A stretch of 64,000 nucleotides of DNA from Ghiorsea bivora (GTDB taxonomy: Bacteria > Pseudomonadota > Zetaproteobacteria > Mariprofundales > Mariprofundaceae), in assembly GCF_000744415.1 (NCBI RefSeq), contig NZ_JQLW01000010.1:1-64000 (forward strand), given 5' to 3'. The number at the start of each line of letters is the position of its first letter. Within the stretch, counting starts at the first letter, position 1. This document shows, piece by piece, positions 36,450 to 55,335 of the stretch. The notes under the pieces were generated by a model. That model saw nothing but the letters and a program-made list of their open reading frames with translations. It was not told the origin of the DNA and made no database searches. The translations under genes and the position numbers were made by a program.

Positions 36450-36603
36450 GGCAGCAAACTAATCTCCCAACTTAAAATTCCCATGTTTTTTGTTTCTGCT
36501 AACTCATTGGTGTCTAATGGAGTCTATGAACACGCTATACTTGACTCCCCCCCTAGCAACTAAGCTGCCAAATTCGGCATGTTTTTCTTGGGAGGGCAAC
36601 AGT

Positions 36604-38538: not shown

Positions 38539-39527
38539 AATTTTTTAATATTTGTTTAGTAGCAACCATAATTATGGTTGGAGTTTCATTTGCACAAGCT
38601 AGAGTTTTACCTGGTTGGTTTGATTCTCAGGGGAACCCCGTGCATACGGCGGATGAAGTGAATGTTCAAGTGAATGTCACCGTCCAAGCTACACCACAAG
38701 GCTATAGATATACCTATTCTATAACTTCTCTACCAAACAGTTTACAAAATTTAGTGGTTTTTGAAGTTGCTTTGTCGGATCCGTATAGTGTGGTTGCAGG
38801 AACCGAGGCATCCCCATGGCCACACTCTCAAGGAACCTACTTTGGTAACCCAAAACATCCAAGTACGCTCGGTTATCAACCAAGTTTAGAAACACTTTCT
38901 ATATTATGGTCAAATAGGTTCTCTACATTTTCACCTGGACTTACTTTATCAGGGTTTATGTTTATTTCACCCTATCCACCAGCTATGATAAGTGGACGTA
39001 TTGAAGGTGATACAGAGCCACCTGTTATTTGGGATGAGGAGCAAGATATTCCAGAGTTTTACAATCAAACCATTTACGGTCCTGGCAAAATTATTCCCGT
39101 TATCGGTCCTGTTAAACCCACCACACCCAATGTCACCGATAATTATTCGGTGCTGGGTTGCGTAGGTGGGATATGCGATGTGCAACTGGATATTACAGGT
39201 CCGCAAGACCCGTATGGCACGGCATATACCTACACTTGGAGCGGTGCGTTCGGCACAGCTATGGGTGCAAAACCTGTGGTGCAGCTTGCGGCAGGCACAT
39301 ATCAAGTCTCTGTTGCCGTGAGCGACCCTTACGCCACCTTGGTGACGGCGACCATGCCCATCACCGTGGTTGACCCCAATCCACCTGCTGGTGGTGGTAA
39401 CGCTGGTGGTGCAGGTTCGCCCAGCAACGACATGGATCATGATGGTATTGATGATGAACATGACGATGACCGCGATGGTGATGGTAAACCCAACAATGAG
39501 GATGATGACCCCGACCACCCTGATTAA
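38535..39527 (+). CDS. Secreted PKD-like protein with acidic calcium-binding tail (copy 1)
   Basis: The 330-residue protein begins with a signal peptide (FNICLVATIIMVGVSFAQA). The middle is all-beta. A PKD-like domain spans about residues 200-280 (DVQLDITGPQDPYG; VSVAVSDPYATLVTATM). The C-terminus is a glycine-rich linker and a thrombospondin-type-3-like tail of alternating acidic residues (DHDGIDDEHDDDRDGDG), which should bind calcium. It overlaps the peptidase gene by 4 bp, so the two are made together. I do not recognise a named family; it may present or inhibit the partner peptidase at the cell surface. Confidence 0.7.
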   Translation: MKFFNICLVATIIMVGVSFAQARVLPGWFDSQGNPVHTADEVNVQVNVTVQATPQGYRYTYSITSLPNSLQNLVVFEVALSDPYSVVAGTEASPWPHSQGTYFGNPKHPSTLGYQPSLETLSILWSNRFSTFSPGLTLSGFMFISPYPPAMISGRIEGDTEPPVIWDEEQDIPEFYNQTIYGPGKIIPVIGPVKPTTPNVTDNYSVLGCVGGICDVQLDITGPQDPYGTAYTYTWSGAFGTAMGAKPVVQLAAGTYQVSVAVSDPYATLVTATMPITVVDPNPPAGGGNAGGAGSPSNDMDHDGIDDEHDDDRDGDGKPNNEDDDPDHPD

Positions 39528-39542
39528 AACATCTTGCTTCTA

Positions 39543-39721
39543 GTCAAGGCGGCACGGTGATATTAAGCTTACCTGATGGCAGCACACAATCATTTACATA
39601 CACAGGCGGCACATCTGCCCCTATACCATTTAGCTATGCAGTGTCTGAACCTGTGGGTTCTACATTGACCTTTACCGCCACAGCCACCAGCAATTCAGGC
39701 GCAACAAGCAAGCAGCCTGCA
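39543..39721 (+). repeat. Near-identical segment shared with 37434-37612 (second copy)
   Basis: This segment lies at the very 5' edge of the second peptidase-like frame, immediately after the first PKD-like gene. The duplication boundary is at about AGTCAAGGCGG. No signal peptide or N-terminal domain precedes it. Confidence 0.85.
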
Positions 39722-40573
39722 ACAGCAACTGCGAATGTGATTGCAGGTGGGCTGAATGTAACGATAACGCCTGCGAAAGTATTGTTAGAGCCAAGACTCC
39801 GCCATCGTGCAGATGTAAAACCAAGTCAAGTTGCTTCAGCTTACAAAACACCAGTTGATATATTGGTTACGGATATGTTTGGGGTTGCTATAACTGGCGC
39901 AAGTGTTTCTTTAACCATATTAACTGTAGATGAAGGTTTTGGTGGTCACGATCATGGCAACTGGCTGCCACCAAAATTAATTATACCTAAACCTAAAGGT
40001 ATTATATTTCCTGCATCAGGTACAACAATAACAGGACATGTCTTTACTGAATATATAGGCAATGAAATTTCCTCATTGGAAAAGATAGAAGCAAATGTTT
40101 ATTATCAAGGATGCTCATTAACTGCCACATCCTCAGCAATAACCTCAGAAATATCTAATTTAACACAATTGGCTGTGAATTCACCGCATTTCAAAATAGG
40201 TGGCACTGATGCACATCATGGCAATAACTGGAATGGCTTTCCAACCACGCCTGATAATAATCATTGGGTTTCATCATCTACTGCAGCAAAAATGAATATT
40301 ATTATGACTGAGTATCCTAAAAAATTTAGTGGTGCTGGATTATATATTAATGATGCTAGTTTACCCAAAGGTGGAAGGTTTGATGCGAAGGGAAATTGGT
40401 TAGATCCGCATCAAACACATAGGCGTGGCATTGATATTGATGTTCATACACTCGACTCAACGAGCCAAAATGTAAAAAGTCGATTAGAATTAATTAAGCT
40501 TTCTGATAAAGATTTATTTAGAGAAATACTAGATGAAGGCAACCACCTTCATATTTATTTCTATCCGAACTAA
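39557..40573 (+). pseudogene. 5'-truncated second copy of the Ig-like/LAS metallopeptidase gene
   Basis: The frame encodes about 338 residues collinear with the C-terminal half of copy 1, starting inside an Ig-like domain. The only start is a GTG at 39557 with a weak AAGGCGG before it. The N-terminal domains and signal peptide are missing. The peptidase motifs remain intact: GGHDHG, GAGLYINDASLPKGG, HRRGIDID and HLH. Downstream of the near-identical edge the protein has diverged strongly. It is either a decaying copy or a cytoplasmic remnant, though selection seems to have kept the active site. It lies 12 bp before the second PKD-like gene. Confidence 0.65.
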
Positions 40574-40585
40574 TTAGGAGTTTAT

Positions 40586-41599
40586 ATGTATAAATCAAAT
40601 TTTTTTATTTTATTAGGAATATTATTTCTTGCGATACCCTCATTTGCTAAAGTTATTCCTGGATTAATAGATAGAAGTGGAAATGCCGTGCATACAGCAG
40701 ATGAGTTTAATTTATCAATCACAACAACTGTAGCACCCAAGCCTCAAGGGTATCAGTATACTTATAATTTATCACTAGGCATAAACAGCATACAACCAAT
40801 ATGGCAATTTATGATTTTTTTACCTGATGTAGCTTCACTCATTCCTAATTCGTCTAGTTCTTTTTGGGGGAAAGGTTGGGGGCCTAAGGTAGGTAGTTCA
40901 AAAGAAAACACTTCTATTCGCTGGGGAACTATTCCAGAAAAAAACAATCAAAACCTCCTGACTCCAACAGGAACTCACACATTTACCTTTACATCTCCTT
41001 ACCCTCCAGGCATTGCTGAAGCTTATGCGGAGGGTGTCACAGCAGGTCCTTGGGTTCCAACTGATATGGCTTCAGGAAATCCGCTCGGGTTTAGTAACCA
41101 CACACCATACGGCCCTGGTAAAGTGTTTCCAGTCATCGGTCCTGTTAAGCCCGCCACACCCAATGTGACGGATAATTATTCGGTTGTAGGTTGTGCGGGT
41201 GGCATATGCGATGTGCAGTTGGATATTACTGGACCGCAAGACCCATACGGTACGACATATACCTACACTTGGACAGGTGCATTCGGCACCGCAACAGGTG
41301 CCAAGCCTCTCGTGCAACTTGCCGTAGGAAACTACAATATATCCGTAGCCGTGAGCGACCCTTATGCCACGTTGGTAACCGCCACCATGCCCATCACCGT
41401 GATTGATCCCAATCCACCTGTAATCACTCCCCCTGCTGGCGGTGGTAACGCTGGTGCTGGTGGGGCAGGTCAAGGTAGCAATACTGGCAGCTCAAACAGC
41501 GACATCGACCATGACGGCATCCCCGATGATGAAGATGATGACCGAGACGGTGACGGCAAGAAAAATAGCGAGGATCAAGACCCCGACCACCCAGATTGA
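40586..41599 (+). CDS. Secreted PKD-like protein with acidic calcium-binding tail (copy 2)
   Basis: The 337-residue paralogue of the 38535 gene begins with a signal peptide (NFFILLGILFLAIPSFA). The N-terminal part is diverged (NAVHTADEFNLSITTTVA versus NPVHTADEVNVQVNVTVQ in copy 1). The PKD-like domain is about 80-85% identical by eye, and the tail is acidic (DIDHDGIPDDEDDDRDGDG). The ATG follows AGGAGTTTAT. The frame is intact even though its upstream partner is truncated, so it could still be expressed, possibly from the copy 1 promoter. Confidence 0.7.
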   Translation: MYKSNFFILLGILFLAIPSFAKVIPGLIDRSGNAVHTADEFNLSITTTVAPKPQGYQYTYNLSLGINSIQPIWQFMIFLPDVASLIPNSSSSFWGKGWGPKVGSSKENTSIRWGTIPEKNNQNLLTPTGTHTFTFTSPYPPGIAEAYAEGVTAGPWVPTDMASGNPLGFSNHTPYGPGKVFPVIGPVKPATPNVTDNYSVVGCAGGICDVQLDITGPQDPYGTTYTYTWTGAFGTATGAKPLVQLAVGNYNISVAVSDPYATLVTATMPITVIDPNPPVITPPAGGGNAGAGGAGQGSNTGSSNSDIDHDGIPDDEDDDRDGDGKKNSEDQDPDHPD

Positions 41600-41680: not shown

Positions 41681-42571
41681 ATGTCATTTTTTAGTCGTCT
41701 TAGCAAAGGGTTGAGCAAAACCCGTGAAAGTATTGGTGGTTTATTCCCCAGTGAAACCAAAGAAAAAATAAGTGATAGCCAATGGCAAGACATTGAAGAT
41801 GCCTTAATTATGGCAGATTGTGGCGCACAATTAGCCATGGACTTGGTTAGAAAAGCAAAGAAATCAAAGCAACCCATGCAAACCTTAAAAGACAATATGC
41901 AAGCCACCTTGGTGACAGGCAGTGAAATCAAAGAAGCAAAACCTTTTGTGCTTTTGGTTGCAGGCGTGAATGGCACGGGCAAAACCACCACGATTGGTAA
42001 ACTTGCCAATATGTATGCCGACCAAGGTAAAAAAGTATTGATTGGCGCAGCAGACACCTTTCGTGCTGCAGCCGTTGAACAATTAGCTGTATGGGTGGAA
42101 CGCGCTGGCGCAGATATTGTTAAACAAGCAGAAGGTGCGGATCCTGCATCGGTTGCTTTTGATACTATCTCACGTGGCATAGCCAAAAATTATGATGTGA
42201 TTATTATTGATACTGCAGGTCGTGTACAAACCGATACCAGCCTGATGAATGAGTTGGCCAAAGTATACCGCGTGATTGGCAAAGCCCTAGATGGTGCACC
42301 GCATGAAGTTTGGCATGTGGTTGATGGTGGTACAGGGCAAAATGCAATTGTACAGGTCGAAAAATTCCGTGAAATCATTCATACCACAGGTTTGATTGTG
42401 ACCAAGCTTGATGGCACTGGCAAAGGTGGTGTGGTATTGCAACTATGTGATAAGTTTAAGTTACCCGTGCGTTATATTGGGGTGGGTGAAAGTTTGGAAG
42501 ACTTGATGCCTTTTCATGCAGGAGCATATATCGATAGTTTACTGCCTGAAACAACACAAACCTCAACATAA
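41681..42571 (+). CDS. ftsY: Signal recognition particle receptor FtsY
   Basis: The 296-residue GTPase docks SRP-ribosome complexes at the membrane. The NG domain has the P-loop GVNGTGKTTTIGKLA, DTFRAAAVEQL, DTAGR and TKLDGTGKGG. The acidic A domain of E. coli FtsY is absent, as in many bacteria; the N-terminus is a short amphipathic helix (MSFFSRLSKGLSKTRES). I use the ATG at 41681 behind GAGGGTG; the frame is open to 41630. Its 3' end overlaps that of cheR by 9 bp, convergently. Confidence 0.95.
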   Translation: MSFFSRLSKGLSKTRESIGGLFPSETKEKISDSQWQDIEDALIMADCGAQLAMDLVRKAKKSKQPMQTLKDNMQATLVTGSEIKEAKPFVLLVAGVNGTGKTTTIGKLANMYADQGKKVLIGAADTFRAAAVEQLAVWVERAGADIVKQAEGADPASVAFDTISRGIAKNYDVIIIDTAGRVQTDTSLMNELAKVYRVIGKALDGAPHEVWHVVDGGTGQNAIVQVEKFREIIHTTGLIVTKLDGTGKGGVVLQLCDKFKLPVRYIGVGESLEDLMPFHAGAYIDSLLPETTQTST

Positions 42572-43387
42572 ACGCCAAATTCTTTGCCGTTGAACATCAA
42601 CCCGTTGCCACTTGGATATATTTCCTTCAGGTAAGTCTGCGGCACCTGTAATGAGGTAACCACCTTTACGCATCGTTCTGGCTATGCGGTCAATCACGCG
42701 TTTGCGCTCTTCAATACTAAAATAAATCAACACATTACGCAAAAACACAACATCAAATAAACCAAACCGGTGCATTTGTGTCACCAGTGTATCTAACACC
42801 AAATTTCCCTCATAAAAGCTTGCCATTGCTCTTAAATCATCATTCACCACCCACGATGGCCCCATTGGACGAAAAAATTTATTTAACCTTGGCATGGAAA
42901 CACCACGCTTTACTTCAATATCTGAATAAGTCCCTTGCTTGGCAAACGCAACCGATTCCGCAGATAAATCTGTGCCTACAATTTGTACACGCTGCCTAGC
43001 ATTGGGCATAACCTCGCAGGCTGTCATAGCAATAGAATATGCCTCCTGACCTCTGGATGCAGCAGCTGACCATATATTTATAGGTGAACTCATACCTTTA
43101 CCTTGGTTTATTTCAGGAAAAATATGTTCTTGTAATGCAACAAAAGGGTAACCATCCCGAAAAAACAATGTTTCATTGGTAGTCATCAAATCAATCGCTT
43201 CAGCAGCAAGTGCCGAGTTTTCTTGCTGCTTTATCTTAAGAATAAGTGCATTCAAATCATCTGCGTTATATTTTGTCAAAATCGGCTGAAGTCTTGATTT
43301 GACCAAATATGCTTTTTCCTTGGTAATTACGATACCACTTTTCCTTTCTAGAAACTCTCTAAACCATGTAAATTTATGCTCTTTCAC
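42563..43387 (-). CDS. cheR: Chemotaxis protein methyltransferase CheR
   Basis: The 274-residue enzyme transfers methyl groups from SAM to glutamates of chemoreceptors. An N-terminal helical CheR_N region is followed by the Rossmann domain, with NIWSAAASRGQEAYSIAM, VGTDLS and VFLRNVLIYFS. The start is GTG at 43387 behind GGAGC. It is last in the seven-gene chemotaxis operon and, with CheB, provides adaptation. Its 3' end overlaps ftsY. Confidence 0.93.
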   Translation of the reverse strand: MKEHKFTWFREFLERKSGIVITKEKAYLVKSRLQPILTKYNADDLNALILKIKQQENSALAAEAIDLMTTNETLFFRDGYPFVALQEHIFPEINQGKGMSSPINIWSAAASRGQEAYSIAMTACEVMPNARQRVQIVGTDLSAESVAFAKQGTYSDIEVKRGVSMPRLNKFFRPMGPSWVVNDDLRAMASFYEGNLVLDTLVTQMHRFGLFDVVFLRNVLIYFSIEERKRVIDRIARTMRKGGYLITGAADLPEGNISKWQRVDVQRQRIWRLC

Positions 43388-43413: not shown

Positions 43414-44487
43414 TTAGGCCACATGCCTGAGCATAGCTTTAGCTATATCAGCTAAAGGTAAGACTTCATTAGCAGCACCATTGCGAAAGGTTTCACCTGC
43501 CATACCCCACACCACACTGCTTTCCTCATTTTGGACAAGCACATGATTTCCTTGTTCTGACAGTAACTTGGCGCCTTTAGCACCATCGTTACCCATGCCC
43601 GTCAAAACCACAGCCAAGGTTTTTACTGCTGGCGATAACGCAACCAAAGATTCGTAAGTTACATCTACCGACGGAATGGCATGGTTTACCCGTACCCCCG
43701 CCTCTAACTGTGCAACCAAAGCTGAACCACGTTGCATAATTTTCATATGCACATCACCTGGTGCCATATATACATGCCCAGCTTGAAGCACCTCACCTTG
43801 CCCTGCCACACGACAAACCAGCGGACTGCTTTGATTCAAACGTGTCGCAAGTGATGTAATAAATGCTTTGGGCATATGCTGAGTTACCACAACCGGCACT
43901 GAAAAATTTTCAGGAAGCTGACTTAACACCTCTTGCAAAGCAGCAGGTCCTCCTGTGCTTGAACCAATGGCAACCACATCTGCCTTAAATACACCACGCG
44001 TTACCTTATGACTTGTTTTTAAAGGAGAGGCGGCTGCGTTTACTGCTGTTGGAGTAACTTTTACAGGCACATGCACACGTTTAAATACCGATTTTAAGCT
44101 TCGCGCTTGCTGAATTTCAGGTAACAATTTATCTTGCAAGTAAGTTTTTTTATCGACAACATTGGTATCAGGTTTAAGAATAAAATCAAATGCACCCAAC
44201 TCCATAGCTTTTAAGGTTTTCTCTGCATCTGTTTCCGTGCTACAAGCCACAACAATCACTTTAATATGTGGGTACTTTTCTCGCATTTGATACAAAATTT
44301 CTATGCCGTCCATATCTGGCATCTTCATGCTTAAGGTAATTAAATCTGGTTGCAAGTGCGCAATCATATCCAATGCTTTTTTTCCATTATTGGCAACACC
44401 AATAATTTCCGTATCGGGTAAGTCGGATAAACATGTGCGTAATAACAAACGAAATGGAGCGGAACTATCAACTATAAGGATTTTCAT
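43414..44487 (-). CDS. cheB: Chemotaxis response regulator methylesterase CheB
   Basis: The 357-residue protein has an N-terminal receiver (MKILIVDSSAPFRLLLRTCL; phospho-acceptor region DLITLSMKMPDMDG, where the usual aspartate appears as a serine-methionine variant, see findings). The C-terminal esterase has serine in AIGSSTGGPAAL, histidine in VVTQHMPKAF and aspartate in GMGNDGAKG. I use the ATG at 44487, giving MKILIVDS; the frame stays open into cheW. It removes methyl groups from receptors and balances CheR. Confidence 0.9.
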   Translation of the reverse strand: MKILIVDSSAPFRLLLRTCLSDLPDTEIIGVANNGKKALDMIAHLQPDLITLSMKMPDMDGIEILYQMREKYPHIKVIVVACSTETDAEKTLKAMELGAFDFILKPDTNVVDKKTYLQDKLLPEIQQARSLKSVFKRVHVPVKVTPTAVNAAASPLKTSHKVTRGVFKADVVAIGSSTGGPAALQEVLSQLPENFSVPVVVTQHMPKAFITSLATRLNQSSPLVCRVAGQGEVLQAGHVYMAPGDVHMKIMQRGSALVAQLEAGVRVNHAIPSVDVTYESLVALSPAVKTLAVVLTGMGNDGAKGAKLLSEQGNHVLVQNEESSVVWGMAGETFRNGAANEVLPLADIAKAMLRHVA

Positions 44488-44494
44488 ATGCTGT

Positions 44495-45019
44495 CTAATG
44501 CATAGTGATTTCTTTGGTATTGGGTGCCGATGCATTGGGAATGGTCAATGCAACAAATCTATCCACATTCACCAGTAACAACACTCTATCCTCTTGTTTT
44601 AACACCCCATCACTCACTTGCCGCCACACTTCGTTTAAAGAACTCGGTGTTGCCTCAAACAAATCTTCATCCAACACAATCACTTCGCCAACATCATCCA
44701 CAATCAGACCAAAGTCTTCACCACTCATGGTTTCAATAATAACCACGTGAAAAGGCTCATCTTCTCCTCTATCTGGCTCACCAATCACACGGCGCACTTC
44801 AAGCTCTGTAATCACCCTTCCCCGCAAGTTAATCAAACCCGCGACTGCATAGGGTGCCATAGGCATAGTGGTTCGCTTTTGTTGTTTTACCACCTCCCGC
44901 ACCTGTTGTACGCGAAAACCAATCCATTGATCAGCGATGCGACACGTCAAAAGCTCAACAGGTTTATTGTCTTTCATCACCGTGACGGATGACGTTTCAT
45001 GAACCAATACATTTGACAT
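44495..45019 (-). CDS. cheW: Chemotaxis coupling protein CheW
   Basis: The 174-residue SH3-like adaptor links receptors to CheA. Family segments include CRIADQWIGFRVQQVREVV, GLINLRGRVITELEVRR and DFGLIVDDVGEVIVLDED. The tail is slightly longer than usual. It starts 10 bp after the cheA stop and its stop is 7 bp before the cheB start. Confidence 0.92.
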   Translation of the reverse strand: MSNVLVHETSSVTVMKDNKPVELLTCRIADQWIGFRVQQVREVVKQQKRTTMPMAPYAVAGLINLRGRVITELEVRRVIGEPDRGEDEPFHVVIIETMSGEDFGLIVDDVGEVIVLDEDLFEATPSSLNEVWRQVSDGVLKQEDRVLLLVNVDRFVALTIPNASAPNTKEITMH

Positions 45020-45028
45020 ATTTACCCC

Positions 45029-47632
45029 TTAACTCACAGTGATAGCTGGCTGTACATCTTTCGTTTGTGCTTCAAGCACATCGTATACCGACAAAGCCTG
45101 CTTTAATTCTTTAGCCAATTGCGTGCTATCTTTTTTCGAAAGCACTTGGTCAAACAACGTTTTGGCTTGTTGCTCATCAATACTTTGCTGTGCTGTTAAC
45201 GCAACCACTGGCACATCAGACAAGTGCGCTTGCATTTTTACCCATTTACCCAACTCATATCCATTCATAATCGGCATTTCAATATCGGTTAAAATAAAGT
45301 CTGGTGTGTAATCTTCCAAGAGTTTACAAGCTTGGGTACCATCCGCTGCCGTACGCACCACAAAACCCAAGGATTCAATAATAGGTGTAACCATTTGCCG
45401 GAAGAACTGTGAATCCTCAACAAACAATACCGACTTCTTGGCTTGGTCATGCGTGGGAACAAACCAGTTTGGATCTGCTCTTTGCACCACTTCAAAAACA
45501 TCAACCACTTCGGTTGCAATGCCTTCAATCACAGTTGTACCTAATAAAAGCGGTGTATCTGAAATTTGCTTAATTTCAAAACTTACTTCTAAAATATCCA
45601 CCACTTGATCAACCTGCAAACACATACGTTTTCCATTGTCAGCTAAGATAAGGCAATACTCATCTTCACCCGTAGATACGGCAGGTTTTTTCCCTAACAT
45701 TTCACCCCAACGCAGCACTCGAACCACATCACCACGGTATTGTAAGACCTCACCCGAAGCCGTTTTTTCAATGCGTGATGCTTCAAAATACTCCAAACGC
45801 TCAATTAAAGTCATTGGAATCACAAAACGCTGCTCACCTTGGGTAAATACCAATGCATGTTGCCGTTCTTCTGCCAGCCCATCATCATGCTCACCCATAT
45901 AATCAATCGCTTCGGCAGGCGCGCTTTCAAGTTGAATCATGGATGCCAAACCATTGCAATCAAAAATTGGAATCACCGTACCGTCACCCAAAATACTACA
46001 GCCACCATAAAAATTCAGATGTTGAAAATGAATACCCAACGGTTTGACCACAATTTCTTCGGCACCAAGAATTTCATCCACCAAAATCCCATACGTTCTA
46101 TCACCAATATCAGCCACGACGATAGAGCCTGATAAAGTTGTATCACTGGCATCAGATAAACCCAAAGCTTCATTTAAACGTAACACGGGTAAAAGTTTCC
46201 CACGTAAACGATAAAAAACTTGCCCTGCAATCACCCGCCAATCATCTGAATCTTTGGGTGCGCTTAATAACTCTTGCACACTCATCTGAGGAATTGCAAA
46301 CCGTTTATCTTCACAAACCACAATCATGGCTGAAATAATTGCCAAGGTAAGCGGAATACGAATCCGAAGTGTAGTGCCTTTACCAAGCTCACTATCAATA
46401 TCTACGCTTCCACCAACGCGCTCAATTTCAGTGCGTACCACATCCATACCCACGCCTCGCCCTGAAAAATTAGTCACCTTCTCTGCGGTGGAAAGACCTG
46501 CATTAAAAATAAGCTGTAAAGCAGCTTTGTCAGTCATATTGGCTGCTTGCTCTGCATTGATCACACCCATATGCATCGCTTTGTCCTTGATGCGTTGTGC
46601 ATCAATGCCACCGCCATCATCATGAATCGTAATCACAATAAACCCTGATTCTTGTACCGCTGAAAGCTTAAGTATACCCGTTGCTTGTTTTTCAGCCGCT
46701 AACCTAACCTTGGGCGATTCAATACCATGGTCACAGCTATTACGGATAATATGAGTGAGTGGGTCTTTAAGCGCATTTAATATGGTTCTATCCAGCTCGG
46801 TATCTTCACCTTCCATCACCACTTTAATTTTTTTATCTAACTGCTTACCAATATCACGAACAATACGTGGCACACTGCTCCAAATAGTTTGAATGGGCTG
46901 CATCCGTGTACGCAATAACTGCTCTTGTAACTGCTCAGTAATTTGATCCACATCACGACCAATACGCACAAATTCCATAGAGCCAGAGGCTTGAATCATC
47001 TGCACCAGACTATTCCGAGTTAACACCAGCTCACCAACTTGGTTCATCAACTCGTCTAGCAATTCAATATCCACACGAATACTTTCATGGCTTACAGGTC
47101 GTTTTTGTTTGGTTTTACTCACACCTTTTTCTTGCGATGTCGTTTGCACGGCTTTGCTTTCTAGTGTTTTGTTTTGTACTGCGGGAGGCGTTGCCACAGT
47201 TTCCGTAGACTCTTGCGTACTGCTTTGCACCGTTTCATTACTTTTTTTGGTTTCCAATTTTGGCGCTTTCGTTGGCTTTTCTTTGCTTCCACTTTCAGTG
47301 TGTACGGACACACTTACTTCTACATCCTCACCCGATTCCACACGCGCCCTAGCCATACCCAAGATTTTCAAGGCATCCGCAGGCGTCAAAGGCTCAAGGT
47401 TACGTAAAGTTGCAAAACCAGCCTCAATCAAACTCGAAGCCGTCGTCAGGTTGTTGGCAATCATGGCTGCAATCACCGCATCTTCAAAACCTTGCAACCA
47501 TGTCAAAGGCTCAGCTTTATTGTCTTGTTCTTGCGCAACCTGAACATTTTCAGCTTCCATTGGTGCTTGCCCATGATCATCGCCTCCCTGTTGACCTTCC
47601 CCCCGCTGACCTCCCCCCCTCTTGACCTTCAT
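45029..47632 (-). CDS. cheA: Hybrid CheA histidine kinase, main part (P3-P5, second CheW-like domain, receiver), separated from its P1 by a frameshift
   Basis: The 867-codon frame begins inside the G-rich linker and has no credible start. In order it has a helical hairpin domain (about 42-100), P3 dimerisation helices (about 185-240, LLDELMNQVGELVLTRN), the ATPase (HIIRNSCDHGIES, GRGVGMDVV), a CheW-like P5 (435-570), a second CheW-like domain (590-730), and a receiver (745-860, VLFVEDSQFFR, phospho-acceptor ILTDIEMPIMNG). The kinase needs the P1 histidine encoded by the upstream frame. The two frames overlap by 56 bp and would be one 1,000-residue protein if a single G were removed from the run of seven at 47613-47619. 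Confidence 0.85.
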   Translation of the reverse strand: MKVKRGGGQRGEGQQGGDDHGQAPMEAENVQVAQEQDNKAEPLTWLQGFEDAVIAAMIANNLTTASSLIEAGFATLRNLEPLTPADALKILGMARARVESGEDVEVSVSVHTESGSKEKPTKAPKLETKKSNETVQSSTQESTETVATPPAVQNKTLESKAVQTTSQEKGVSKTKQKRPVSHESIRVDIELLDELMNQVGELVLTRNSLVQMIQASGSMEFVRIGRDVDQITEQLQEQLLRTRMQPIQTIWSSVPRIVRDIGKQLDKKIKVVMEGEDTELDRTILNALKDPLTHIIRNSCDHGIESPKVRLAAEKQATGILKLSAVQESGFIVITIHDDGGGIDAQRIKDKAMHMGVINAEQAANMTDKAALQLIFNAGLSTAEKVTNFSGRGVGMDVVRTEIERVGGSVDIDSELGKGTTLRIRIPLTLAIISAMIVVCEDKRFAIPQMSVQELLSAPKDSDDWRVIAGQVFYRLRGKLLPVLRLNEALGLSDASDTTLSGSIVVADIGDRTYGILVDEILGAEEIVVKPLGIHFQHLNFYGGCSILGDGTVIPIFDCNGLASMIQLESAPAEAIDYMGEHDDGLAEERQHALVFTQGEQRFVIPMTLIERLEYFEASRIEKTASGEVLQYRGDVVRVLRWGEMLGKKPAVSTGEDEYCLILADNGKRMCLQVDQVVDILEVSFEIKQISDTPLLLGTTVIEGIATEVVDVFEVVQRADPNWFVPTHDQAKKSVLFVEDSQFFRQMVTPIIESLGFVVRTAADGTQACKLLEDYTPDFILTDIEMPIMNGYELGKWVKMQAHLSDVPVVALTAQQSIDEQQAKTLFDQVLSKKDSTQLAKELKQALSVYDVLEAQTKDVQPAITVS

Positions 47633-48029
47633 CCAAACCCATCACCTTTTTCTCACATGCTTGTAAACGCTCAATCAAGTCATCATGATCTAAAACGGGT
47701 TCTTGCCCTGTTTCTTCTAAACCTGTGAGCACATCCTTAATTGCATCTGCGCACTCCAAAAGTAAGGATACAATATCTTCATCCACATGATACTTAAGCT
47801 CTCGAATACGGCTTAATAGATTCTCACCTGCATGGGCTACTTTTTCCAACCTGCTTAAGTTGAGAAAACCACAGCTACCTTTCACCGTATGAATGGCACG
47901 AAAGATAGAGTCCAAAAGCTCTGAATCATCAGGGGAAGCTTCCAAATCCATGAGCTGCTGCTCAATGGATTCTAGGCTTTCATTGCTTTCTGTTAAAAAT
48001 TCACCTAAGAGTTCTTCATCCATGTCCAT
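47577..48029 (-). CDS. cheA: CheA P1 (Hpt) domain, 5' part of the split cheA
   Basis: The 150-residue frame holds the CheA histidine phosphotransfer domain with the phospho-acceptor H47 in IFRAIHTVKGSCGFL. Residues 1-130 are the helical bundle. The last 20 (EGGRSAGGRSTGRR) come from reading the wrong frame after the G7 run. In the alternative frame the same DNA reads GGGQRGEGQQGGDDHGQ and joins the rest of CheA. As read, it makes an isolated Hpt protein that could be phosphorylated in trans by the separate kinase part. Confidence 0.8.
   Translation of the reverse strand: MDMDEELLGEFLTESNESLESIEQQLMDLEASPDDSELLDSIFRAIHTVKGSCGFLNLSRLEKVAHAGENLLSRIRELKYHVDEDIVSLLLECADAIKDVLTGLEETGQEPVLDHDDLIERLQACEKKVMGLDEGQEGGRSAGGRSTGRR
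47613..47619 (-). repeat. Run of seven G (minus strand) at the cheA frame break
   Basis: The minus strand reads CAAGAGGGGGGGAGGTCA. A second, six-base run lies at 47599-47604. Six instead of seven G would fuse the two cheA frames without any stop. Runs of this kind mutate by slippage and are a usual basis of phase variation, and also a frequent place for sequencing errors. Confidence 0.75.
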
Positions 48030-48065: not shown

Positions 48066-48440
48066 TTAAAAAAGCATGCCACCGACTGTTTCAATTAAAG
48101 CTTCAGGCTGAAAAGGTTTAACCAACCATGCTGAAATACCTGAGTTGTGCCCAATAGCTTTTTTATCTTCGCCAGATTCCGTCGTTAACATCACGATTGG
48201 TGTGTGTGCATAAGCCTCTGTTTCTCTCAACTTTTGAATCATGGTTAACCCATCCATATTGGGCATGTTTAAATCGGTTAGAATCAAATCAAAAGGTGTT
48301 TCAGCTTGTATTGCTTTATCCAAACCTTCTTGTCCATCTTTGGCTTCTTCCACACCAAAATCAACAGACATCAGTGTTCGTTTCACTGTAATTCTTACCA
48401 TTGCCGAGTCTTCAACAATTAAAATCCGTGGACCACTCAT
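48066..48440 (-). CDS. cheY: Chemotaxis response regulator CheY
   Basis: The 124-residue single receiver domain has the acidic pair in ILIVEDSAMVR, phospho-acceptor D in LILTDLNMPNMDG, the threonine in IVMLTTESGE and lysine in WLVKPFQPE. When phosphorylated it would bind the flagellar switch or, in this operon, another output. Its ATG overlaps the stop of the channel gene upstream (ATGA), so the two proteins are made in coupled fashion. Confidence 0.93.
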   Translation of the reverse strand: MSGPRILIVEDSAMVRITVKRTLMSVDFGVEEAKDGQEGLDKAIQAETPFDLILTDLNMPNMDGLTMIQKLRETEAYAHTPIVMLTTESGEDKKAIGHNSGISAWLVKPFQPEALIETVGGMLF

Positions 48441-51400
48441 AACTCACCTCTCAATACAATTCGCTCTTCTTCCATCACATAACGTTTGGCAACTTCTTCT
48501 TCCCAAGCTGCTTTTTCTGTAGCTTCAGGCTGTGCATCTGCCCATTCACTCAAACATGATTTCACATTGTTCAGACGTTGGTTTACCCGATCGATATTTT
48601 GTAAATCGGTCAGTGCTTCCATCAGCTTGGCTTCCACTTCAGGAGCTACACCCATTTCCAAAATATCCATGAGTTTTACCAAACCCTCTTCACTGCTTGT
48701 TGCCAATAGCTCCACTGAGCCTTGCACTTGTTTTTCCAATACCCGCAACAAACGTTTATCTACCTGCTTAGGCCAAATTGATTCACGCATCACTTCTCCT
48801 TCAACAGCCATATCAACCACTGCAACGGATTGTATGTCTTGGTTTTCTTCTTTAATCACTTCATCACTTGGAGCCGCTTCACACGTTTCTTCTTCTCTTA
48901 CTACTTCCTCTTGGGCTTCAACTGGTGTGTTGGTAGCAACAACCGTTTCTTCTGTGTTGAGCGTTAATGTTTGCTCAGCTTCGTTTTCGTCATTATTCAA
49001 CACACCACGACGACAAAATAAAAATGAAGCCGTTTGATAGGGCGCATCCATTTCCATCACAGGTGAGCCCGCCAACAACTGCATATTACCCACATGCCCT
49101 GAATGCAAAGGAAACACATGATCCAAAGCATGAAACAAACTTTTTGCATCTGTATCCTTATCATGTTTCAAATATGCCATCAGCATCCAACCACGGCGCA
49201 GTGCTTCCCGATAAACCGACTCCCAACTGGGTTGTTTCCCACCCTCAAGCAAGTGTATCGCTTCTACATCTTCCACCAACACAGCATCACCAAGCATATT
49301 GTCCATAAAGTCATAAGCATACTTATCTTCAACAGCTTCCTCAGGGTATTGCATCTTTCTTGCTTGTGTAAGCAATTGCCTTGCCATAAACACATCATGG
49401 AACGCATCAGGCGAGCCAACCCGCACATCCAAAAGTGGGTAGCGCTGACCAGCATTAACCAAACTTTCAATATTTTCTGCCATACGCGGCAAGACCATCA
49501 GTTTGGGTGGTGTCCACCATTTCACTTGTTCTTTGCGTGCAGAGAGCATGGATGCCACTTCATGCAACCAAAGCTCCAACATCGAATCCTCATTACCCTC
49601 TTCCCCACTTTCAGGGTAAAACATGATAACTTTACAACCGCGAAGTTGTTTGCTTAATACTTCGGTATCCAAACCATCCCATGCATGAACCGACACATTT
49701 AAGGTGCATGATATGTTTTCTTTCACATGTTCTTCAACACTTCGCAAAGCACGCATTTGTGCTGTTAACAATGTTTCATCATGGGTACTAAAAACATGGC
49801 ATGTTAGCTTATGATGTCGCTCTGCCATCTCTTCAATCATGGCTGGCAAACCAGGGTGCCAACCCAAAAACATCATGGATAAATCCCAAGTTTCTGGCCA
49901 AGTAAAGGTTTGCAATTGATTTTCATGAGGCATAAGCCCTAAATCAAAGCTTTGCTCTAAAATACCCGACCATAAAATTCTATCTCTGCCCAAAGCAATG
50001 ATGCCTTCAAAAGCTTCATCTTTTTTGTGTTTGACCAAATCACTGAACAAAATAAATATTCCATCATGTCGCCGTGCTGCCAACACATTCAGCCCCAAAC
50101 CAAAACAATTGGTTAACCAAGGTTCGAGCAACAGTTGTTCATTTTCAAATTTAATTGCAGCACCCGCACTGCTGGTTACAATCTCAAACTGCCACGACAT
50201 GCTGTATAAACCTGTTTCCCCCGACACCACATCAAACATATGAATACCCAACTCTGGCATATGGCTGCAATGATGCATTTGATACAACATACGGGCGCGA
50301 ATCGAAGATGAGTCCACCACATGCATTGCCAATGAATGTTCATAAACTTGGGATAAACTTAAGGGTAACCGACTGTCTGTAACCACCAACCCATCGGTAT
50401 CCAACTCACGTGCCAAATGGTGAATATCCGCAACCTTGGCTGTATCTGGCTCATGCTGTTTCTGCATGAATACAATAAATTGAGTAATACCTGTAAGTTT
50501 AAAATGTTCAATCAAAGCGCGACTTCCCGTTTGCACCTCGCGCACACTTAACCAACTACCCACTTGTGCCGCACCATCCACCACTTTATCATGAAAAATC
50601 CACACTGAAGGAAAAGAATAACGCAACCTTGCCGCCAGTTGTCCAAGCTTGTGTAAAATGGGCATAGCCTGTTCATTGTATCCCATAAACAATAAGTGTT
50701 CACGCGCTGAAAGTGGGCTATTGGCAAGCTCGTCTAACATATATTTCATCACATTCGAGCCAAGGCTGACCACCAAAGCAAAGAAAAACACACCTGAAAG
50801 CACCAAAACAACTGTCAAACCCGTTAACCAAGGTGTAAATGCCACCGTGGGTGCAGCGCCAGGGTCTATCATCAAACGAAAGACAAATAACAACACCTGA
50901 AACGGCGCATAATCCCCAGCATTCACATCACCATCGTCATTAATATCAATATGCGGATAAAAATACCAAATGGCAATAAAACCTATAATCATGAATGCCA
51001 TAAACATGGCTGCCAACATGCTGCCTTCACGGCGAATTTCAGGTCTAGCCACTACTTTTTTCACGGCAAGCCAAATATTACCCAAGGGATTGAGCATAAT
51101 AAGGAAACGAACGAGGCGTAACAAAACCCAAGTGCTACTTAATTCAGGTACAATACCCATCAAAGCAATAGCAGCAAACATATCAGGGGCGATAAAAAAG
51201 ACTTCCCACCGTCTGCGTTTTCCAGCGGATAAAACGCGGTATAAAGAATACCAGCGATAACTGGTTTCAATCAACAAAATCATGCCAATATACAAACCAA
51301 TACTAGACACCGCCCAAGCAAGAGCTGCAAGCCCCACCATCACCAAAGAAAATGGCAATGAAAACACCAAAGTATCAAAGGTTAAAAAGCGGAAAATACG

Positions 51401-52036
51401 CAACATCCGTAACATATACATGCCACGGAATAGCCTTGCGATACGCAAATAAATGCCCTGCTCCAACAAACCTGCTGGCATCAACAACGAGGCATACATA
51501 CTGATAGTCGCTAAGCCATCAAAAAAGAGAAAAAACAGCTCCATTTTGTTGCGATAGCCACTTTCCTTTTGCAGCCAAAAGCGAAGCACCCACTCCACTG
51601 TAAAAAAGATCGCCAGCGGTGCCATAACAAACCAATAGCGCTCAAACACGCATAAACCCAAAGCAATCATGACAATAACAGCATAACGGGGATGCGAAAA
51701 GACACGTTCGCCCAATAATAACCATTCACGTTTGGAATGAGGACCCGATAAACGCGCCATCCACTCTGATGACCACGATGAACTGCGATGGTTTAAGTTG
51801 GAACTTTCAACATCATTTTTTGTAACAGACGATGTTTCAACACTAACTTGATTTCGTGAACCTTCATTCACTACTGCATTCACATCAGCTATAACCTGCT
51901 CAGCTTTGGCTTGTTGAACATCTTCAGCTTCAAATTTTATTGTTTTCTCAGCCACCTGAATACTCTTACAACTTGCCATCGATAACGTAGGTTTCACCAC
52001 TGTATTTAACAGTGCCGTAACTGGTGGTGTTGTCAA
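48437..52036 (-). CDS. CASTOR/POLLUX-like voltage-sensor channel with RCK-like part and CheZ-like C-terminal tail
   Basis: The 1199-residue protein has a polar N-terminus (1-100) and membrane helices from about 113. An S4-like helix has arginine at every third position (R198, R201, R204, R210, R213, R216). A second set of helices precedes the pore. An EF-hand loop (D364-D375) precedes the pore helix (FRLMIDPGAAP). The final membrane helix leads into an RCK-like part (LLFMGYNEQAMPILHKLG) of about 550 residues. A disordered acidic linker and a helical tail (about 1081-1199) follow. The tail has LQNIDRVNQRL, in which D1149 and Q1153 match the D-x-x-x-Q of CheZ. It lies between the MCP gene and cheY. 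Channel similarity is to plant CASTOR/POLLUX-type proteins. Confidence 0.65.
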   Translation of the reverse strand: MTTPPVTALLNTVVKPTLSMASCKSIQVAEKTIKFEAEDVQQAKAEQVIADVNAVVNEGSRNQVSVETSSVTKNDVESSNLNHRSSSWSSEWMARLSGPHSKREWLLLGERVFSHPRYAVIVMIALGLCVFERYWFVMAPLAIFFTVEWVLRFWLQKESGYRNKMELFFLFFDGLATISMYASLLMPAGLLEQGIYLRIARLFRGMYMLRMLRIFRFLTFDTLVFSLPFSLVMVGLAALAWAVSSIGLYIGMILLIETSYRWYSLYRVLSAGKRRRWEVFFIAPDMFAAIALMGIVPELSSTWVLLRLVRFLIMLNPLGNIWLAVKKVVARPEIRREGSMLAAMFMAFMIIGFIAIWYFYPHIDINDDGDVNAGDYAPFQVLLFVFRLMIDPGAAPTVAFTPWLTGLTVVLVLSGVFFFALVVSLGSNVMKYMLDELANSPLSAREHLLFMGYNEQAMPILHKLGQLAARLRYSFPSVWIFHDKVVDGAAQVGSWLSVREVQTGSRALIEHFKLTGITQFIVFMQKQHEPDTAKVADIHHLARELDTDGLVVTDSRLPLSLSQVYEHSLAMHVVDSSSIRARMLYQMHHCSHMPELGIHMFDVVSGETGLYSMSWQFEIVTSSAGAAIKFENEQLLLEPWLTNCFGLGLNVLAARRHDGIFILFSDLVKHKKDEAFEGIIALGRDRILWSGILEQSFDLGLMPHENQLQTFTWPETWDLSMMFLGWHPGLPAMIEEMAERHHKLTCHVFSTHDETLLTAQMRALRSVEEHVKENISCTLNVSVHAWDGLDTEVLSKQLRGCKVIMFYPESGEEGNEDSMLELWLHEVASMLSARKEQVKWWTPPKLMVLPRMAENIESLVNAGQRYPLLDVRVGSPDAFHDVFMARQLLTQARKMQYPEEAVEDKYAYDFMDNMLGDAVLVEDVEAIHLLEGGKQPSWESVYREALRRGWMLMAYLKHDKDTDAKSLFHALDHVFPLHSGHVGNMQLLAGSPVMEMDAPYQTASFLFCRRGVLNNDENEAEQTLTLNTEETVVATNTPVEAQEEVVREEETCEAAPSDEVIKEENQDIQSVAVVDMAVEGEVMRESIWPKQVDKRLLRVLEKQVQGSVELLATSSEEGLVKLMDILEMGVAPEVEAKLMEALTDLQNIDRVNQRLNNVKSCLSEWADAQPEATEKAAWEEEVAKRYVMEEERIVLRGEL
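50912..50947 (-). other. EF-hand-like calcium-binding loop in the channel protein
   Basis: These 36 bases encode DINDDGDVNAGD (residues 364-375). Positions 1, 3, 5, 7, 9 and 12 are D, N, D, D, N and D with glycine at position 6, a canonical EF-hand/dockerin loop. It lies between the helix SMLAAMFMAFMIIGFIAIW and the pore helix, so it should face the periplasm. Confidence 0.7.
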
Positions 52037-52083: not shown

Positions 52084-54333
52084 CTAACGGTTGCGCAAGC
52101 TGGCTAAAAAATCAGTCACACGAGCCGATAAAGACTCTCCTTTTTGTCGAATTAATGACGATACACTTTTTACTTCACTGGCTGATCTACCCGTATCTTC
52201 AGCTGCTTGTCGCACATCCGAAATGGCAGTCGTCACCCGCACTGTTGCATCGGATGCATGGTGAACACTCTGTGCAATATCTTGTGTTGCTCTGCTCTGC
52301 TCACTGGCTGCCATAGCGATAGCTTCATTGATAGTATTCATTTTTTGAATGGTTTGACCAATCTTTTCAATTGCCGTTGCCGCCCCTTGGCTTTCCTGTT
52401 GAATCGCTGTTATTTGCAAGGAAATCTGTTCAGTTGCTTTGGCAGTTTGATTTGCAAGTTCTTTCACTTCTCCTGCCACTACAGCAAAACCACGCCCTGC
52501 ATCACCTGCTCTAGCAGCTTCAATGCTTGCATTAAGTGCAAGTAAATTGGTTTGTTCTGCAATATCTGTAATTACACCCACAACTTCACCAATTTCTTGC
52601 GATGCTACAGATAGTTTAGCGACGGTTTTATTGGTCGTTTCTGCTTCAGACACAGCTTGTGACGACATATCCACAGCACCTTGTACCTGCTGTGTGATTT
52701 CAGAAATCGAAGAGGAAAGCTCCTCTGTTGCTGATGCCACATTGGCAACATTATGATTCGCCTCTTCAGCACCAGCAGACACACTGGTTGCTTGCCCTAA
52801 AGATTGCTCAGCCATCGCTGAAAGCGTTTCGGATGATGATTGCATTTGTGTTGCTGCAGCGATTAATTCATCCACTGTTGCCCCAATATTAGTCTCAAAA
52901 TCTTTGGCCAGTTGCACAGCATGGGTTACATCATTCCAAGATACCAAAATAGATACCCAGTCACCATCAATATTCTTAATCGTATGTGCACTAAATTCAA
53001 TGGTTCGATCAGCAATTTCAAACGATGCAGACATCGGAAATGACTGTTCATTTTTGAGAACTTGACGCTGATGTGATGGTTTTTCATGAAAGATATCGAT
53101 GTTTTTACCTACCAATTCTGAAGCAGCACATGGCAATGCACCTTCAATACCCTGAAACAATGCAAGCGCCGCTGGGTTCATATAACTAATCACCAATGAA
53201 TCCTTATCCGCAAGCATCATGGCTTGTGGTGAAGACTCCACAACTTGCTTTAACATATTGCTTTCCACAGATTGTTTTTGGAACTTTCTCAGTGAATCTA
53301 ACAGCTCACTTATTGCTCCCTTCATTGGATATGATACCTCGCGAATTTCTCCCCGCTCCAATACATCCATAGCTTCTGCAACCTTATTTAACGGTGTTGT
53401 AATGGTTTTACCAATCCTAACAATTAAAAGAGTAATCAATACAATAGCAATGGTTAAGATTCCCCAAAACTGATACTTTTGAGATGTTTGTCGAGCAGCC
53501 TGCTCTTCATATAATTTATCAAGATAAGATTGGAACCCTTGGTCTAATAACTTTATTTCCGCACTAAGCTCAGTTTGGTAAATTTTCTCCAGTTCTGTTT
53601 CAACTTGAATCAAACTTAAAAGTTTTTCAGCATAACTTTCAAATGACTTTTCGTATTCCCCCATATCTCTTTCTATATTATGTTTCACTTGCATGCTTAA
53701 GTTTGATTGTCGTAGCAGGGTCTTAAATCTTTGTACTTCTTTGTGAAACTTGTCCACATATTTGGGTTGCTGGCGCAGCATAAAGTCTTTTTCATGCCGT
53801 CTTAACATGAGCATAGAAACCATAAGATTATTTTTGTTGTATTTTTTCAGGTTTGCCTCAACATTATGTACAGCTTTCCGCAACTGACCGGTAAGCCCAT
53901 CATTTTTATTCAAACCTAATTTTTCACGCTCAACCGCAGCTTGCTCAAAAATACTATCAAACTTCTGCATAGCTTGCTGTAAATTGACCGTCTCTTGATT
54001 TAACGCAGTGGTCGGAAGACCATGAACCAATGTTTGAATATCCTTATCATTATCTGCTGAATACGCTAGCCATGCTTCTTTCCCTTGTTTATCTTTATAT
54101 TTTAAATACCGAGCAGCTGATTCAAATTCAACAAAAACATTTCCCAACAACCTACCTAGTACACCTTGTAGATGCATGGCATCGGTTACTCTAACCGTGA
54201 CCTCACGCACTTGATTACTTGAACTATTGTGAACTGCACCCGCCACCAACATACCAATAACAGCAACTGTACCAATCAAACGTAAACGTCCGACAATTGT
54301 AAGTTCTGCAAACCATGTTTTGATATTAACCAT
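52084..54333 (-). CDS. Methyl-accepting chemotaxis protein with PAS domain
   Basis: I start at the ATG 54333, eight bases after GGAG; the frame is open to 54348 at a GTG. The 749-residue receptor has a membrane helix ([15 protein letters not shown]), a helical periplasmic domain of about 270 residues, and a second helix ([17 protein letters not shown]). A HAMP-like region ([17 protein letters not shown]) and a PAS domain (about 380-490, [14 protein letters not shown]) follow. The signalling hairpin tip has [20 protein letters not shown]. It is first in the chemotaxis operon and presumably its dedicated receptor. The gene to its left starts 48 bp away. Confidence 0.92.
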
Positions 54334-54408
54334 TCTCAACTCCAACACTGAGCTTATTTTTCTAAAAGTTTTACAATTTAAAGCAAAAGCAATGCCATTT
54401 CTTTTGCT

Positions 54409-54830
54409 TAAACTACAATCACCTCATGGCGAACCGTTAAACATGTAATAGCTGATAAATTATACACACCTAATTTTTTCATAATATGCATACGATGTAC
54501 CCAAACAGTTTTAGGCCTCAAGTTAAGCAAGGACGAAATATCCTTTACTGACACCCCTTCTGCCAAAACAGCAAACACTTCGAACTCACGCGAACTGAAA
54601 ATATCAAGCAGATCTTGATATATTGGACATGACTAAGCCTTATGCCAAAGAAAGCTCAATATAAACGCGCCTTATCCACCAAGCGTACCTCCTTAATCAA
54701 CTCATCAGGCTACGTACGTTTGGTCAAATAACCTTAATGCCTAGCTTAATCGCGTGGGCAGTAAATATTTTGCTTTCATACGTTACGTGGATAATATCAT
54801 CAATTTGGGATTGTATTGAGGTAATTGCCA
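54409..54830 (-). pseudogene. Decayed NarL-type response regulator
   Basis: No intact frame exists, but the minus strand keeps recognisable pieces. 54409-54630 reads YQDLLDIFSSREFEVFAVLA and then VKDISSLLNLRPKTVWVHRM, a LuxR/GerE helix-turn-helix ending in a normal stop. Upstream, in shifted frames, AHAIKLGIK, GYLT and PDELIKEVRLVDKG match the end of a receiver domain. Stops and frameshifts separate them. The receiver's start is lost at the IS3 relic. The neighbouring kinase relic suggests the two were once a two-component pair. Confidence 0.65.
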
Positions 54831-55046
54831 TGATTATGCTGTTTCTGAAAGCTTTTTCTCAATACTAAAAACCGAGAGTATTAAGAAAATATATATAAAA
54901 CAATGCCTTAGATTCGCTCAGATATTTTTGGTTATATTGAATTGTTCTATAACCCAGTACGTCATCATGGGAACAACAATAGACTCTCACCTGTAAGGTT
55001 TGCAAATAAGTATGATGAGAAACTCTTAGCTGTCTACATAAACTAG
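54820..55046 (+). pseudogene. IS3-family transposase OrfB relic (C-terminal fragment)
   Basis: On the plus strand GNCHDYAVSESFFSILKTE (from about 54820), then, after a frameshift, DIFGYIELFYNPVRHHGNNN and LSPVRFANKY (54921-55046) give the last catalytic part of an IS3 OrfB. The E of the DDE triad is in the AVSESFF segment. Everything upstream is missing. It differs from the intact IS at the window start, so it comes from a different IS3 element. Confidence 0.75.
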
Positions 55047-55049
55047 GGG

Positions 55050-55335
55050 CTCGCCAAAGCCATTAAATCTTGTGGTGAATTCTACAAACCAAACTTATCC
55101 AAATTACTAGGGTATAACCGATACATACTGGTATACAATTGATCCGTAAGGGAGACAATACTCTCCGCCAAGGTGCGTTTTCCTAGCTTCGCTTTACCTT
55201 ATGCATCAACTACGCAGAGATACGGATAGCCGTTAAGTTTTGCCCAATTTCATTATGCAATTCAAAAACAATTTCTCGCCGTTCATTTCAATAAACATAA
55301 GGTTCTGACGTATCAATGTGTTATTTCCTAGCGGC
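55050..55335 (-). pseudogene. Decayed NarX/UhpB-type sensor histidine kinase
   Basis: On the minus strand RREIVFELHNEIGQNLTAIR (from about 55290 down) is the HisKA_3 phospho-acceptor helix, with the histidine in ELHNE. In a shifted frame TLAESIVSLTDQLYTSMYRL and YPSNLDKFGL continue the same domain, as in UhpB and NarX. In-frame stops interrupt it. The sensor and ATPase parts are not seen. Its 3' side abuts the IS3 relic, and the response-regulator relic lies beyond. Confidence 0.65.

Follow-up and report, generated by a model that had tools for sequence, protein, structure and literature searches.

A tandem voltage-sensor channel with a putative CheZ-like tail is a fixed member of a zetaproteobacterial chemotaxis operon

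We analysed the first 64,000 nucleotides of contig NZ_JQLW01000010.1 of Ghiorsea bivora (hereafter, the window), where a chemotaxis (che) operon contains a gene for a large ion-channel-like protein between the genes for a methyl-accepting chemotaxis protein (MCP) and CheY. The channel gene is a fixed component of this operon in related genomes of the iron-oxidising Zetaproteobacteria. By structural model its product has the fold of a voltage-sensor/RCK channel, with two voltage-sensor domains (VSDs) in tandem, and its C-terminal tail is homologous to the C-terminus of McpA/CttP-type proteins. The protein is very probably a channel of this class, with a putative conductance. We also propose, tentatively and with slightly more doubt than confidence, that it is a channel-fused phosphatase of phosphorylated CheY (CheY~P) that feeds voltage or ion state into CheY.

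The initial annotation had placed a protein of 1199 residues between the MCP gene and cheY, and the open reading frame (ORF) was verified at 48437-52036 on the minus strand, with 1199 open codons starting at TTG. The first ~95 residues vary among orthologues, and a methionine at residue 20 is an alternative start. MCP, channel, cheY, cheA, cheW, cheB and cheR form a same-strand run, in which the channel stop and the cheY start share 4 bp (ATGA). Among 60 relatives searched, full-length orthologues at 36-89% identity also keep the gene neighbourhood, hence the conservation is far beyond chance. A wide scan of one genome per species (84,980 species) returned 42 channel loci, all from Zetaproteobacteria where titled (Ghiorsea, Mariprofundus, Mariprofundaceae), with two labelled just proteobacteria; among 249 sampled Pseudomonadota genomes, the channel-part profile had no match outside Zetaproteobacteria. 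The initial annotation had suggested a survey for the same gene beside cheY: by hand count from the neighbourhood table, cheY lies directly downstream of the channel in 30 loci, and an MCP gene directly upstream in 37 of the 37 loci that extend that far. The order MCP-channel-cheY-cheA-cheW-cheB-cheR is retained wherever contigs permit.

We compared 41 zetaproteobacterial genomes, counting the cheA of this operon as present at a threshold of at least 50% identity. The channel was found in 21 of the 24 genomes with this cheA and in none of the 17 without it. Of the three channel-less genomes with cheA, G005 has that gene right at the beginning of a contig and G017 has a tail at a contig end; G022 is the sole genome of the three that genuinely has no channel, and its tail domain occurs by itself between an MCP gene and cheA. 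Genome G023 (one contig, with a more distant cheA) has a different che gene order and no channel.

The initial annotation had described an S4 ladder of six arginines at every third position between R198 and R216. The six arginines are present (R198, R201, R204, R210, R213 and R216); their spacing is not uniform, as they occupy seven every-third positions of which residue 207 is a tyrosine. All 38 orthologues have R198, R201, R204 and R213, and 37 of them have Y207. Together with F145 and E148 in S2 and D173 in S3, this ladder gives the first bundle the features of a voltage sensor. A second voltage-sensor bundle had been overlooked, as had the C-terminal domain (residues 1076-1199). The two bundles align by hhalign with a score of 62.9 (E = 5e-11). 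None of 150 column shuffles scored above 18.4; the reversed profile reached 15.5, and the first VSD versus the pore 9.5. Because these two four-helix bundles form an internal repeat, we assign the ten predicted transmembrane (TM) helices to an order of VSD, VSD and then S5-P-S6. A profile of the TM part, built including paralogues from outside che operons, was compared with the PDB. Its best 24 matches were all voltage-gated K channels (Kv/KCNQ/KvAP; best E = 0.006, over the first VSD), as were its matches overall except two; KvAP matched the second bundle and pore at E = 0.3-0.5. Two voltage sensors ahead of one pore is an unusual channel architecture, of which the literature searched yielded no description.

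The pore region FRLMIDPGAAP was also present as annotated. Its filter, DPGAAP, follows a D-P-G-x-x-x pattern in which D391, P392 and G393 are invariant, and a TVGYG-type K+ filter is not present in the channel. Between S5 and the pore helix lies an EF-hand-like loop, D-x-N-x-D-G-x5-D, which is conserved in paralogues too. Ghiorsea bivora encodes two such paralogous channels of ~950 aa outside che operons, at L051:6786-9614 (C13) and L052:6603-9473 (C9). They share the tandem VSD, the EF-like loop and a D-P-G-N filter (T-D-P-G-N) and are without the tail; paralogues of this kind are widespread in Zetaproteobacteria. In CASTOR the filter reads AD265SGNHA, and D265N abolishes currents (PMC6697748). 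Given the D-P-G filter, the parallel to CASTOR D265 and the conserved EF-hand-like loop, the likeliest reading of the sequence is a cation channel that may be permeable to Ca2+.

Searches of the channel protein against Pfam, NCBIfam and, as a single sequence, the PDB gave nothing significant. An AlphaFold2 (AF2) model was built from 38 orthologues (predicted local distance difference test, pLDDT, 81; predicted template modelling score 0.76). Foldseek of this single-chain model gave as best PDB matches the gating ring of LjCASTOR (6o7a, E = 2.1e-15, probability 1.0) and Slo1 (5tj6, 4.3e-15), followed by MtDMI1 (7vm8, 3.5e-14) and GsuK (6.7e-13), in line with the voltage-sensor channel fold that had been expected. 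With the survey of genes beside cheY, the single-chain model bears out the initial annotation on both checks that it had named as able to refute it. The RCK-like part recognised from LLFMGYNEQAMP is present and is modelled as a double-RCK ring of CASTOR type, although the Slo1 match is nearly as good. The annotated likeness to CASTOR/POLLUX thus stands for the ring and the fold match to the plant nuclear Ca2+ channels LjCASTOR and MtDMI1 (POLLUX), and for a filter other than TVGYG in which D and G are conserved. It does not extend further: the channel has ten TM helices with two VSDs where CASTOR/POLLUX have four TM helices, its filter (I-D-P-G-A-A-P) is without N-H-A, it carries the tail and sits in an operon, and hmmscan of the 38 orthologues found no match to PF06241 (CASTOR/POLLUX). 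A search of the Ghiorsea bivora genome gave no PF06241 match either, but the controls of that search gave none. Slo1 (BK) shares the order VSD, pore, double RCK; unlike Slo1 and GsuK, the channel lacks TVGYG and has a second VSD. The channel belongs to neither of the Pfam families CASTOR and CheZ. Nucleotide state had been named as a possible input, and we dropped nucleotide binding by the RCK part because no GxGxxG motif was seen there.

For the proposal that ion flux or membrane voltage feeds into motility, the most telling part of the protein is its CheZ-like C-terminal module. In its model, two long helices of the tail form a hairpin, followed by two short C-terminal helices (pLDDT 87), and the tail contains D1149 and Q1153 in an LQNIDRVxQ motif that is invariant at both residues in 34 copies. 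Outside Zetaproteobacteria, the tail profile found gammaproteobacterial proteins of ~400 aa that combine an MCP signalling domain with LQFQDRxSQ in the C-terminal part, and a reverse search from these proteins recovered the zetaproteobacterial tails. Their genes immediately precede cheY and cheA, as that of McpA/CttP/PA0180 does in the F7 cluster (PMC7184735), and this gene order, with the conserved C-terminus, suggests that they are McpA/CttP-like. The role of the McpA C-terminus was stated to be unclear though conserved (PMC7184735). Tail and McpA/CttP C-terminus aligned by hhalign with E = 3e-10 and a score of 66 (shuffles at most 23), a strong match. The two differ in that the McpA/CttP module (PA0180 type) sits on an MCP signalling domain and has a D-[IV]-T-F-F-like end of its own that is absent from the channel tail; its place directly upstream of cheY-cheA is the same.

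McpA-type proteins in turn resemble CheZ: hhalign gave a score of 36.9 (shuffles at most 21.7, reversed 15.1), with FQDRTSQ aligned on FQDLTGQ, a similarity that is moderate but clear of controls. Some McpA-type proteins also match Pfam CheZ independently, if weakly. CheZ carries DxxxQ as its phosphatase motif (PMC7750401), and in the tail, as in CheZ, it lies on the second hairpin helix (helix 57-92 of the tail model). No match to the CheZ, CheC or CheX families was found in the Ghiorsea bivora genome. We use the label CheZ-like because of this two-step homology chain, the DxxxQ pattern, the neighbouring cheY and the absence of CheZ, CheC and CheX matches from the genome. The tail itself had no PF04344 (CheZ) match and its C-terminal profile no match in the PDB. 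CheZ is a dimeric, long four-helix bundle; the model of the tail covers a monomer, a predicted hairpin without a specific PDB match. Unlike CheZ, the tail is fused to a channel. Since it occurs channel-free in G022, we regard the tail as a module in its own right. Tails at contig ends in G017, G063 and G079 were not counted as standalone, and the separation of tail and channel at a stretch of unknown residues in L101/G008 was not used.

We noted further arrangements of the module. Genome G039 (L041/L091:1922-7373) encodes a channel of 1674 aa that bears three CheZ-like tails in tandem; a fourth tail has an ORF of its own ahead of cheY. Several Mariprofundus-type loci (L079, L085, L088) also seem to have tandem copies. 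McpA/CttP-type proteins at L135:8376-9584, L136:6572-7774, L199, L200, L201 and L206 end in an apparent CheZ-like DxxxQ module, and some of these gammaproteobacterial proteins, from F7-like clusters, hold the full AxxFQDxxxQ of CheZ. A 191-aa gammaproteobacterial protein (L198:5106-5681; FQFYDRLSQRLEHV...SYSLECER, with a D-I-E-L-F end) resembles the tail, and no che gene was recognised near it.

We infer phosphatase activity, tetramerisation, ion selectivity, gating and a coupling of gating to the tail in the following scheme. A presumably tetrameric, CASTOR/Slo-like voltage-sensing cation channel would carry a CheZ-like hairpin on a flexible tether at each subunit. The hairpins would act on CheY~P produced by the neighbouring CheA, and, when paired, would form CheZ-like four-helix bundles that dephosphorylate it via D1149 and Q1153. 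Gating by membrane voltage (through the two VSDs) and by ion binding (at the outer EF-like loop and the RCK ring) would alter the hairpin arrangement or the local ion concentration, and with it how long CheY~P persists at the membrane. Such a motility input would reach CheY itself, alongside the route through MCP and CheA; the genome also encodes FliM. That the putative module acts on CheY~P is rather likely. Control of the tail by gating is a possibility that we hold with some doubt, and doubt is greater still for the complete scheme, in which gating of a tandem-VSD, CASTOR-like channel directly controls a CheZ-like CheY~P phosphatase and opens a CheA-independent voltage or ion route to the flagellar motor.

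Several results weigh against this scheme. Compared directly by hhalign, tail and CheZ are not significantly similar (score 16.3, shuffles up to 24.5); the link to CheZ runs through McpA alone, with a CheZ-McpA step of moderate strength. Foldseek of the AF2 hairpin lists no CheZ; the best matches, at E = 0.8 or worse, are generic hairpins (WXG100/ROP-like), which we judged uninformative. In CheZ, DxxxQ is preceded by an AxxFQ motif (PMC7750401), which the tail lacks. Moreover, a flexible linker of variable length fits tethering better than tight mechanical coupling.

The linker bears on another, though unlikely, explanation, in which the channel only holds domains that dephosphorylate CheY~P, or that bind CheY, in place at the membrane or pole, and conduction has another purpose without control of the tail. 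The acidic, length-variable linker of low model confidence would suit an anchor, as would a tail that can be alone (G022) or in tandem on one channel (G039). A plain anchor, however, needs no conserved VSDs, filter and gating ring, yet the channel co-occurs strictly with the che operon. As VSDs, filter and ring are strictly retained in the che-linked branch, channel function appears to matter. Most likely the tail acts on CheY~P, with the channel either controlling or positioning it.

The direction of signalling might also be reversed, with CheY~P binding the tail and gating the channel, such that chemotaxis controls ion flux or membrane potential, for example as an electrical signalling output. 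The translational coupling of cheY to the channel gene and the high conservation of this cheY (87-99% identity across most of the genus) would agree with such a role. We consider it improbable: DxxxQ is catalytic in CheZ, the nearest characterised relative, the same module in McpA/CttP-type proteins sits on a protein without a pore, and we know of no CheY-gated channel.

A comparably low probability, if anything a shade lower, attaches to flux alone being the function, in ion homeostasis or energy taxis (e.g. Ca2+ or K+ entry sensed elsewhere), with the C-terminal domain as a scaffold of the CheA/MCP array. The non-che paralogues have the same channel part; both, however, lack the tail, which in Ghiorsea bivora is confined to the che-linked gene that immediately precedes cheY. 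NavBP is an ordinary 6-TM, single-VSD channel, not fused to a CheY-acting module. This bacterial voltage-gated Na+ channel of alkaliphilic Bacillus may act by flux alone, and it is a precedent in that it is linked to motility and chemotaxis (Ito et al. 2004, cited in PMC4225499).

Returning to the channel-fused phosphatase, each of its modules comes from a known superfamily; the combination of a tandem-VSD, CASTOR-like channel and a CheY-partner module in a che operon was not found in family libraries, the PDB or the literature searched, and no link between the zetaproteobacterial channel and chemotaxis was found in that literature. There is a real chance that the fusion is a new kind of chemotaxis input. 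If so, a bacterial ion channel and the output step of chemotaxis would be in physical connection, and one protein would tie electrical or ionic state to behaviour. The conserved McpA/CttP C-terminus (PMC7184735) would likewise gain a testable role, as a CheZ-like module in F7 clusters without cheZ; a CheZ-like DxxxQ module is a possible answer to its unexplained conservation.

Table 1. Features of the channel gene and its operon (window coordinates; res, residues of the channel protein).
Feature	Position	Strand	Basis
Channel gene, 1199 aa	48437..52036	-	Open frame from TTG or later start; full-length orthologues conserved
Voltage-sensor bundle 1, res ~115-224 (S2 F145/E148/R152, S3 D173, S4 R198-R216)	51365..51694	-	Kv1.2/2.1 and KCNQ profile matches; residue conservation; AF2 helices
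S4 arginine ladder, res 195-219	51380..51454	-	Alignment conservation
Second voltage-sensor-like bundle, res 225-330 (E257, R261, D285, R307, R310 invariant)	51047..51364	-	Internal repeat with bundle 1
Pore domain S5-P-S6, res 332-438	50723..51043	-	AF2 helices; weak KvAP S3-S6 profile match, E 0.3-0.5
EF-hand/dockerin-like loop, outer pore mouth, res 364-376, DINDDGDVNAGDY	50909..50947	-	D364 invariant; D368, D375 near-invariant
Selectivity filter, res 391-396, DPGAAP	50849..50866	-	D-P-G invariant; cf. CASTOR AD265SGNHA (PMC6697748)
Double RCK gating-ring domain, res 440-1013	48998..50719	-	AF2 and Foldseek
Acidic length-variable linker, res 1014-1075	48812..48997	-	Alignment; start predicted disordered, pLDDT ~33 at res ~1013-1035
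CheZ-like C-terminal domain (putative), res 1076-1199	48440..48811	-	Homology to McpA/CttP C-terminus, E 3e-10
D1149-x-x-x-Q1153	48578..48592	-	Invariant in 34 copies; aligns with CheZ catalytic D/Q via McpA
MCP (PAS + MCPsignal), opens conserved run	52084..54348	-	Family match
cheY, 124 aa	48066..48440	-	PF00072; 4-bp overlap with channel stop
cheA 5' part (Hpt)	47577..48029	-	Family match; frameshift separates remainder
cheA 3' part (kinase, two CheW domains, receiver)	45029..47632	-	Family match
cheW	44495..45019	-	Family match
cheB	43414..44535	-	Family match
cheR	42563..43387	-	Family match

Lastly, we noted features of the window around the channel gene. The frame of cheA changes at a C-rich stretch (47570-47632), while genome G013 (L031) has a single cheA ORF of 964 aa; the split may be a frameshift or a sequencing error. 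Upstream of the MCP gene, 54411-55287 holds what is left of a LuxR-type response regulator gene (54411-54733) and of a histidine kinase gene (55046-55287). This pair is intact upstream of the MCP gene in G013 (L031:10744-12060) and looks decayed in the window. Two similar, adjoining gene pairs for secreted-looking proteins at 36490-41599 (36490-38538/38535-39527 and 39557-40573/40586-41599) are apparently a tandem duplication.

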